From: Natronococcus amylolyticus DSM 10524
GTDB lineage: Archaea > Halobacteriota > Halobacteria > Halobacteriales > Natrialbaceae
Assembly: GCF_000337675.1 (NCBI RefSeq)
Contig: NZ_AOIB01000031.1
Coordinates: 36,659-73,890, forward strand
Direction: 5' to 3'
DNA length: 37,232 bases
This document shows, piece by piece, positions 25,568 to 35,943 of this stretch; the stretch's first letter is position 1, and each line of letters opens with the position of its first letter. Both the position numbers and the translations under genes were made by a program. Below the pieces are notes generated by a model. The model was not told the origin of the DNA. It did not search any database and saw only the letters and a program-made list of their open reading frames with translations.

Positions 25568-27829
25568 TTACTGGAAGGTGCGGCCGAGCTGTTCTTCGCC
25601 CTCGGGTTCGGTGGCCTGGAACTGCTGTTCGATCTCCTCGTAGCGCTCGCGGGTCTCGGGGGTCACGCTCGGCTGGACCTCCTCGAGTGCCTGCTCGAAG
25701 TGTTCCTTGCTGATGCGGACGTTCTCGATCGTGTCCGGCATGTCGTCGGGGTCGACCGAGTTGATGAACTCGCGGCTGGCGGCCATCGAGGCCTCACGGG
25801 TGACGGCCTCGATGTCGGCGCCGACGTAGCCCTCCGTTTCGGCGGCGAGCCACTCGAGGTCGATCGCGTCGGCCAGGGGTTTGTCGCGGGTGTGGACCTC
25901 GAAGATCCGCTTGCGGCCCTCCTCGTCGGGGACCGGCACGTGGACGTGGCGGTCGAGGCGGCCGGGCCGCAGCAGCGCCGAGTCGATCAGGTCCGGGCGG
26001 TTGGTCGTCGCGATCACGACGACGTCCTCGAGCTCCTCGAGGCCGTCGAGCTCCGTGAGCAGCTGGGAGACGACACGCTCGCCGACACCCGAATCACCCT
26101 GGCGCTGGCCGCGTTCGCCCGCGATCGAGTCGATCTCGTCGAAGAAGATCACGGTCGGAGCGTTCGAACGGGCCTTCTCGAAGACCTCGCGGACGCCCTT
26201 CTCGGACTCGCCGACGTACTTGTTCAGCAGTTCGGGGCCCTTGATCGAGATGAAGTTCGACTGGGACTCGTTGGCCACCGCCTTGGCGAGCAGGGTCTTC
26301 CCCGTGCCGGGCGGGCCGTACATGAGGACGCCCCTGGCGGCCTCCATGTCCATCTGTTCGAACACCTCGGGGTAGTCGAGCGGCCACTGGATCGTCTCGC
26401 GAAGCCGTTCTTTGGTGTCTCCGAGGCCGCCGACGTGGTCCCACGTGACGTCCGGCACCTCGACGAAGACCTCCCGGAGCGCCGAGGGCTGGATCCCCTT
26501 CATCGCCTCCTTGACGTCGGTTTCGGTCACCTCGAGCGATTCGAGGATCTCGGCGTCGATCTCGTCGGATTCCAGGTCGAGGTCGGGACGGATCCGTCGC
26601 AGGGCGTTCATCGCACCCTCGCGGGCGAGGCTCTCGAGGTCGGCGCCGACGAAGCCGTGGGTGTTCTCGGCGTAGTGATCGAGGTCGATATCTTCGCTGA
26701 GGGGCATCCCGCGGGTGTGGACCTGCAGGATCTCCTTGCGGCCGCCCTTGTCGGGGACGCCGATCTCGATCTCGCGGTCGAATCGGCCGCCCCGGCGCAG
26801 GGCGGGGTCGATCGCGTCGACGCGGTTGGTCGCGGCGATGACCGTGACTCGGACCCGCTCCTCGAGCCCGTCCATCAGGCTCAGGAGCTGGGCGACGACG
26901 CGTCGTTCGACGTCGCCGCCGGCTTCCTCTCGTTTGGCGGCGATGGAGTCGAGCTCGTCGATGAAGATGATCGCGGGGGCGTTCTCCTCTGCCTCCTCGA
27001 ACACCTCCCGGAGCTGCTCCTCCGATTCGCCGTAGTACTTCGACATGATCTCCGGGCCGGAGATCGTCTCGAAGTGAGCGTCGATCTCGTTGGCGACGGC
27101 TTTCGCCATCAGGGTCTTCCCGGTGCCGGGTGGGCCGTGCAGCAGGACTCCCTTCGGCGGTTCGATGCCGAGTTGCTGGAACAGCTCGGGGTGGCGCATC
27201 GGCAGCTCGATCATCTCGCGGACCTGATCGAGCTCGTCGTCGAGTCCGCCGATGTCCTCGTAGGTGATGTTCGGCACGCCCTCGGGGGACTCGCCGGCCT
27301 CGGAGCTGACCTGCTCGGCCGGCGTCTCGGAGATCTCGATGTTCGTCGAGTCGGTGATGACGACCGTCCCGGAGGGATCGGCGCTGGCGATCTTCAGCGG
27401 CACCGACTGGCCGGAGCTGGCCATCGGACCGAACGACAGCGAGAACGGCACCGTCTGCCCCTCGGCGACGGCCTGTCCGGACAGCTTGTCGCGCACGAGC
27501 GGGCCGATGTCGCCGCGAATGCGGAGGTTCTGCGGGAGTGCGACCGTAACCGAGTTCGCGGGCTTGACGTCGGCCGGCTCGACGCTGACGTTGTCGTCGA
27601 TCCCGACGTCGGCCTCCTGGCGCAGGCGGCCGTCGATACGAACGATGCCACGACCCTCGTCCTCGGGGTAGCCGGGCCAGACGCGCGCGACGGCCTGGCT
27701 GTCGTCCTTGCCCTCGATGACGATGTAGTCGCCGTTCTCGAGGTCGAGCTCGCGCATCGAGACGCGGTCGATTGCGGCGAGTCCGCGGCCCGCGTCCTTC
27801 TGTTTTAGGGGTTTGACGGTGAGTTTCAT
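25568..27829 (-). CDS. cdc48: Cdc48/VCP-type AAA+ ATPase (CdcH)
   Basis: A 753-residue double-ring unfoldase that threads proteins, often towards the proteasome. The N-terminal double-psi barrel domain spans about 1-180. AAA1 has Walker A GPPGTGKT at 232-239 and Walker [12 protein letters not shown] near 287. AAA2 has GPPGTGKT at 505-512 and [15 protein letters not shown], with arginine fingers in both rings. It overlaps the upstream small gene by 4 nt, forming an operon from a strong TATA promoter. No HbYX tail is seen; the C-terminus is GRTFQ. Confidence 0.96.
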
Positions 27830-28074
27830 TGGTTGCCCTCCAGTTCGACAGTGAGCACGCCGTTTCTGATAAACGTGTGCGCGTCAGCTGCGCCGTCGGG
27901 CAGCTCGAACTCGTACTGGTCGTCGCCGTCGACGACGATGACCGTGCCGTCGGCGATATCGGCGGCGGCGTCGGTACTCGCCGTGCCGAAGTCGACGGCC
28001 AGCACCGATCCGTCCTCGTACTCGTAGCGACGAGCGATCTGCTCGTCTTCACGAGTGAATTGATCGAGTGTCAT
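27826..28074 (-). CDS. Small acidic protein cotranscribed with cdc48 (DUF7127-like)
   Basis: An 82-residue protein. The C-terminal end has the pattern [15 protein letters not shown], which recalls the last strand of Hsp20/alpha-crystallin domains (GVLTV). The rest ([31 protein letters not shown]) is beta-rich. This resembles a haloarchaeal family often upstream of cdcH. It could be a small chaperone or Cdc48 adaptor, which is inference. Its stop overlaps the cdc48 start, so expression is tightly coupled. Confidence 0.68.
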
Positions 28075-28094
28075 GGTGATACTAACTATGGGTA

Positions 28095-28114
28095 AGTGCT
28101 ACTAGTATATAAGT
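28095..28114 (-). promoter_or_regulatory. Core promoter of the cdc48 operon with TAGTAG motif
   Basis: The minus strand reads ACTTATATA then C, then TAGTAG, C and ACT. The TATA box (28106-28112) is unusually strong. TACTAGTA (28100-28107) is a perfect 8-bp palindrome on its downstream edge. The start should be near 28084, 10 nt before the ATG. The same blocks recur at the tfb promoter (35921-35943). Confidence 0.6.
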
Positions 28115-34944: not shown

Positions 34945-35907
34945 TTAGCCGTGGATTCCCATCGCTTCGATCTGTTCCTGGTAGCGGTTCCGGATCGTGA
35001 CTTCGGTCACCTGGGCGACGTCTGCGACCTCGCGTTGGGTCTTCTTCTCATTACACAGCAGCGAGGCGGCGTAGATCGCCGCCGCGGCGTACCCGGTCGG
35101 GGATTTGCCCGAGAGCAGTCCTTCCTCGGCCGTCTTTTCGATGATCTCGTTGGCCTTGGTCTGGACCTCCTCGGAGAGTTCGAGTTCGGAACAGAAGCGG
35201 GGAACGTACTTTTTCGGGTCGACGGGGCGCATCTCGAGGCCGAGTTCCTGCGAGATGTACCGGTACGTACGACCGATCTCCTTTCGCTCGACGCGTGAAA
35301 CTTCCGAGATCTCCTCTAAGCTTCGCGGGATCCCCTCCTTGCGACAGGCAGCGTACAGCGCACTGGTCGCGACGCCCTCGATCGATCGGCCGCGGATGAG
35401 GTCCTCCTTGAGCGCGCGCCGGTAGATGACCGACGCCACCTCGCGAACCGACCGCGGCACACCCAGCGCCGAGGCCATCCGATCGATCTCCGAGAGCGCG
35501 AACTGCAGGTTGCGCTCGCCAGCGTCCTTGGTTCGGATGCGTTCCTGCCACTTGCGCAGGCGGTGCATCTGACTGCGCTTCTTCGAGGAGATCGAGCGAC
35601 CGTAGGCGTCCTTGTCCTTCCAGTCGATCGTCGTCGTCAGTCCCTTGTCGTGCATCGTCTGTGTCGTCGGCGCACCGACGCGGGACTTCTCCTGTCGCTC
35701 CTGGTGATTGAACGCCCGCCACTCCGGACCGGGGTCGATCTTCTCCTCCTCGACGACGAGCCCACAGTCTTCGCAGATGAGCTCACCCCGATCGGAGTCT
35801 TTCACGAGATTATCCGATTCACACTCGGGACAGGCACGTACCTCGTCCTGTTCCTCGGATTCGTCCGTTTCACGCATTCGCTCCCGCTGGCGGGTGGACC
35901 GTGTCAT
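34945..35907 (-). CDS. tfb: Transcription initiation factor TFB
   Basis: A 320-residue TFIIB homologue that recruits RNA polymerase to TBP-bound promoters. The zinc ribbon has C26, C29, C45 and C48. The B-reader/linker follows ([17 protein letters not shown], then [26 protein letters not shown]). Two cyclin repeats occupy about 125-210 and 220-315, the second with a helix-turn-helix that reads the BRE. Haloarchaea carry several TFB paralogues and this is one; which one cannot be assigned. Its promoter has a palindrome shared in part with cdc48. Confidence 0.96.
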
Positions 35908-35916
35908 CGCGCTTTT

Positions 35917-35943
35917 ATAGTAGTACTACTATGATATATAAGT
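35917..35943 (-). promoter_or_regulatory. tfb promoter with 16-bp palindrome between TATA and start
   Basis: CTTATATATC (35933-35942) is a strong TATA box, centred 30 nt before the ATG. ATAGTAGTACTACTAT (35917-35932) is a perfect 16-bp palindrome that fills the space from TATA to the predicted start near 35912. Blocks ACTTATATA, TAGTAG and ACT are shared with the cdc48 promoter. Confidence 0.6.

Follow-up and report, generated by a model that had tools for sequence, protein, structure and literature searches.

A conserved operator of probable HSR1/Phr type at the DUF7127-cdc48 promoter and before one tfb paralogue in haloarchaea

The window analysed here is the whole stretch of 37,232 nucleotides, a segment of a haloarchaeal contig (G000:C31:36659-73890) from a genome of 4.4 Mb. 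The genes considered were a two-gene operon of DUF7127 and cdc48, in which cdc48 overlaps the end of DUF7127, and one gene for the general transcription factor TFB (tfb). These genes and their promoter features are listed in Table 1. The promoter assigned to cdc48 in the initial annotation does lead to this gene, with the qualification that DUF7127 is transcribed first and cdc48 second.

Table 1. Positions of the genes and promoter features in the window.
Feature	Position	Strand	Remarks
DUF7127	27826..28074	-	82 aa; first gene of the operon; PF23444, E 4e-15
cdc48 AAA+ ATPase	25568..27829	-	Second gene of the operon; CDC48_N, CDC48_2 and two AAA domains
HSR1-type box, operator-like dyad CTTAC-CCATA-GTTAG = CTTACCCATAGTTAG	28082..28096	-	Conserved element of the cdc48 promoter
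9-nt spacer CTAGTAGCA	28097..28105	-	Contains TAGTAG; length constant, sequence weakly conserved
TATA box TTATATA	28106..28112	-	Exactly 9 nt ahead of the operator
tfb of the window, housekeeping-type	34945..35907	-	TFIIB repeats and Zn ribbon; without the operator
Ultraconserved start region of the window's tfb	35881..35925	-	-18 to codon 9; distinct from the operator
16-bp palindrome ATAGTAGTACTACTAT	35917..35932	-	At the window's tfb; real; outside the operator system

A palindromic code shared by the cdc48 and tfb core promoters had been proposed around the hexamer TAGTAG, and the letters were as claimed. The minus strand from 28114 to 28095 reads ACTTATATA-C-TAGTAG-C-ACT at cdc48, the tfb promoter reads ACTTATATA-TCA-TAGTAG-T-ACT, and the palindrome at the latter promoter is perfect. 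In the suggested genome scan, TATAN{1,4}TAGTAGNACT had exactly two matches over the 4.4 Mb, one at each of these promoters, and the reversed control had 0. Comparison of the upstream regions of 30 DUF7127 orthologues and 30 orthologues of the window-type tfb, however, did not show conservation of this motif at both promoters in relatives, and two different conserved elements were found, CTTACC-N3-GGTTAG at cdc48 (3' of TAGTAG) and TACTACTATAAAAGTGCGATG at tfb. It is thus very improbable that TAGTAG and the 16-bp palindrome form the operator of a regulator common to cdc48 and the window's tfb. The confinement of the combined TATA-TAGTAG pattern to these two promoters genome-wide speaks for such an operator, as do a weak enrichment of TAGTAG within the 9 nt that separate TATA from the operator (14 of 55 cdc48 promoters) and the retention of the palindrome at tfb by most of the genus. 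Against it, TAGTAG is missing at cdc48 in 3 of the 9 genomes of the genus, its distance to TATA differs between the cdc48 promoter and that of the window's tfb, the left half of the palindrome is kept within the genus and lost outside it, and perfect 16-bp palindromes are not rare, with 7 in the window including the one at tfb. The right half of the palindrome (TACTACTATAAAAG) is conserved across the order. Overall, the TAGTAG motif is correct as a string of letters but incidental, while the adjoining operator is real, old and specific.

This operator, the box, lies directly downstream of TAGTAG at cdc48 and belongs to a fixed composite element, TTATATR-N9-CTWAC-N5-GTTAG. The cdc48 box is the only match with 0-1 mismatches in the window and is retained in orthologues across haloarchaea, and the spacing between TATA and box was constant across about 115 distinct promoters, belonging to cdc48 and to tfb paralogues. 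Its dyad CTTAC-N5-GTTAG is one base apart from the published HSR1 site of A. fulgidus, CTAAC-N5-GTTAG (PMC9133787), and both variants occur across haloarchaea. Lying at a fixed distance from TATA, the box overlaps the predicted transcription start. This position would also suit an element of the core promoter, or an initiator, that is recognised by TBP, a TFB or RNA polymerase with no dedicated regulator. This alternative is hardly credible, since each genome has the box at no more than two or three genes, and since the box forms a dyad and agrees with the published site of a regulator. The bare CTTAC-N5-GTTAG without TATA context was rejected as a search pattern; it was about as frequent in single genomes as its reversed control, and the composite element was therefore used for the scans.

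With up to 2 mismatches allowed, the composite TTATATA-N9-box was present in 56 of 61 haloarchaeal genomes with few control matches. It usually stood in two places, one ahead of a single tfb paralogue and the other ahead of DUF7127-cdc48 or directly ahead of cdc48. An exact search for BRE-TATA-N9-box in the genomes of about 85,000 bacterial and archaeal species produced 53 matches, confined to haloarchaea and Archaeoglobi. By downstream gene, 35 of these preceded a tfb paralogue, 13 DUF7127-cdc48, 2 HSR1-like-cdc48 and 2 HSP20 genes; the remaining match was cut off by the end of its stretch and equals in sequence one of the 35 tfb-paralogue matches. In a phylum sample of 148 genomes, the composite without mismatches gave 27 matches compared to 0 for the reversed control, at 12 HSR1-like-cdc48 operons, 10 DUF7127-cdc48 operons, 3 HSP20 genes and 2 tfb paralogues. 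A few further genes were added at 2 mismatches, including hsp20 (L137), psmA (L168) and a small membrane protein. As in an HSR1-type regulon, the targets thus comprised DUF7127-cdc48 and some hsp20 genes.

Two further box-like sequences were also observed. A box with 3 mismatches, TTATACATCACGACCCCTTACCTCGGGGTAT, stands before a gene for an HtpX-like protease in two congeners (L115/L195 and L126), L115/L195 being in the genome under study (C13:374021-374051, minus strand). The small conserved membrane protein, MTGYYDIVLGLIPVAL... (L164, L167, L170, L171 and L175), is preceded by TATA-N9 and a related box, C[AT]TACTATNxGATAG or similar, which is possibly a relative of the operator.

The tfb gene that carries the box in this genome lies on another contig. 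Ten strong TFB matches were found in the genome and nine of their promoters were inspected, with the box in one (C21:277318-277348, minus strand, TTATATGGGTTACGGTCTTACAATATGTTAA). This site has one mismatch within the box and is located 61 nt ahead of a TFB that is about 63% identical to that of the window. Upstream of the window's tfb there was no box, the best match having 4 mismatches compared to 3 or 4 in seven box-less TFB paralogues. The window's tfb was accordingly rejected as the regulatory partner of cdc48, being without the operator, and is outside the HSR1-type regulon. In a TFB tree, a fully supported branch parted the box-bearing TFBs from the window-type TFBs, although the tool warned of long branches; in the same tree, two box-less paralogues of this genome fell inside the broad group of box-bearing TFBs. 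The initial annotation had also suggested a stress regulator, common to cdc48 and a TFB, that binds just 3' of TATA. The comparative evidence supports this idea well in kind, with a motif and a tfb other than those proposed.

A candidate regulator of 222 aa is encoded from C14:30564 onward, among about 100 HTH_20-like matches in the genome. It matched the structure of P. furiosus Phr (2p4w) with an E value of 1.3e-22 and the NCBIfam Phr model, in the latter case under the strict cut-off of the model, and was 53% identical to the Archaeoglobus sp. JdFR-37 gene that occupies the HSR1 position. Among these regulators, the recognition helices were near-identical. Phr and HSR1 were placed in one family, arCOG01684, in a proteome study (PMC5852551), and in Methanonatronarchaeum the arCOG01684 regulator and the adjacent Cdc48 rise at high temperature (PMC5852551). 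The HSR1/Phr orthologue was single-copy in 59 of 61 haloarchaeal genomes, and the two genomes without it (G037 and G053) were also without DUF7127 and without the cdc48 box.

No box, and so no sign of autoregulation, was found in 30 haloarchaeal promoters of the regulator, which was therefore identified by homology. This absence and the roughly 100 HTH_20-like matches leave room for another binder, and an ArsR-like protein other than the HSR1/Phr orthologue could occupy the box. Such a reading is unlikely, as the box is of the same kind as the HSR1 site and, in Archaeoglobi and other lineages, precedes the very operon of regulator and cdc48; in addition, no protein of the set other than the orthologue combines a likeness to Phr at E 1e-22 with the recognition helix of Phr. 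In place of the box, the promoter of the regulator has a conserved stretch of its own, AGACACSCTTTTCAGCG, about 40 nt upstream of the gene (L227-L256). The C-terminal domain of the regulator carries the Pfam label 'Cmi2, C-terminal' (PF24270); a search of the open-access literature gave no paper on Cmi2.

The AlphaFold model of DUF7127, built with 12 orthologues, was all-beta and of modest confidence, with a pLDDT of 65. Nearly all of the 24 best PDB matches of this model in Foldseek were small heat-shock proteins with an alpha-crystallin domain, with probabilities near 1 but weak E values of 0.03 or worse. The sequence had no HSP20 match in Pfam. From the modelled fold, DUF7127 may well be a minimal small heat-shock protein and a partner of Cdc48. 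An operon of an HSP20-like protein and Cdc48 would fit the cargo of an HSR1 regulon, which is supporting but not decisive.

Taken together, the cdc48 promoter most probably carries a haloarchaeal repressor operator of HSR1/Phr type, released on heating, whose regulon includes one tfb paralogue. This interpretation is drawn from sequence comparison, and the box-less promoter of the regulator and the one mismatch in the C21 tfb box were counted against it. Phr keeps the polymerase off the TBP-TFB complex (PMC9133787), and by analogy with Phr the haloarchaeal box would be occupied over the start site and vacated on heating. At normal temperature, a dimer of the HSR1/Phr orthologue on the box would block the recruitment of RNA polymerase to the TBP-TFB complex; on heating, the regulator would leave the box and the operon of the HSP20-like DUF7127 and cdc48 would be switched on. 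Since one tfb paralogue is preceded by this operator too, release would at the same time increase the level of a general transcription factor. The alternative TFB freed in this way could then turn on additional heat-shock genes, forming a second tier. A two-tier cascade of this kind, with an ancient HSR1/Phr-type repressor over Cdc48 and an alternative TFB acting like a heat-shock sigma factor, appears reasonably likely, and if true would mean that a classical repressor regulon has captured a general transcription factor.

The putative haloarchaeal system shares with HSR1 of A. fulgidus (arCOG01684) the dyad, its location downstream of TATA, the cargo (cdc48 and hsp20) and an orthologous regulator. 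It differs in that the haloarchaeal regulator gene is apart from cdc48 and without a box of its own, DUF7127 replaces the regulator gene before cdc48, the regulon has gained a tfb paralogue and the usual half-site is CTTAC. With Phr of P. furiosus it has in common a homologous winged-helix regulator, a site over the transcription start and targets of the same kind, those of Phr being hsp20 and an AAA+ ATPase. The Phr operator is different (TTTA / TGGTAA / AAAA; PMC9133787), no TFB was found described among the Phr targets, and both HSR1 and Phr are autoregulated, unlike the haloarchaeal regulator. By most of the features compared, the system appears to work like and belong to the HSR1/Phr kind, in a rewired form without a sign of autoregulation and with a TFB added.

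A heat response directed by TFBs is known in haloarchaea (tfb2 of H. volcanii, TfbB/TfbG of Halobacterium; hsp5 promoter). There, as in the proposed cascade, a heat-induced TFB paralogue drives a small heat-shock gene, and the operator would provide the upstream switch that is missing. Heating of Halobacterium to 49 C raised cdc48b 5.6-fold, cdc48d 3.4-fold and tfbG 2.4-fold (PMC1971269), tfb2 of H. volcanii is raised up to eight-fold by heat (PMC2121645), and induced TFBs act at the hsp5 promoter (PMC9133787). These published responses of cdc48 and TFB genes to heat agree in outline with the proposed cascade at the level of gene kind. A review of 2022 stated that no heat-shock regulation of HSR1/Phr type had been identified in halophilic archaea and ascribed their heat response to induced TFBs, with the inducer unnamed (PMC9133787). 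In addition, no report of an HSR1/Phr system in haloarchaea was found in the open-access literature. A conserved operator with a probable regulator and two target operons would fill this gap in the heat-shock regulation of halophiles, and what switches on the heat TFB would become directly testable. It would further show how an ancestral regulator-cdc48 operon was rewired so that its regulon took in a general transcription factor.

The start region of the window's tfb was conserved separately from the operator. This region was present in 48 of 61 genomes, one copy each and at tfb, and its sequence (TACTACTATAAAAGYGCGATGACACGG...) was nearly invariant in 30 genomes of several families. Synonymous sites in this region were also near-invariant, with the top codon at 0.93-1.00 compared to a mean of 0.71. 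The stretch TATAAAAG directly before the ATG resembles a second TATA box. RNA folding at this start was no more stable than that of shuffled sequences. The region may perhaps serve autoregulation by TBP/TFB, or else be a start element of the mRNA.

Finally, the box-bearing tfb genes have a leader of 50-90 nt that starts inside the right half of the operator and is conserved as GAGGCGACCGGGTTTCTTCTGGTTNCCCCACCCGGGAGCCCCGAGTAAC (L106, L157 and about 57 more loci). A consensus fold of this leader from a MAFFT alignment gave no clear result. The leader can form a hairpin, with a mean z of -1.4 compared to shuffled sequences, which is perhaps a second control at the RNA level.
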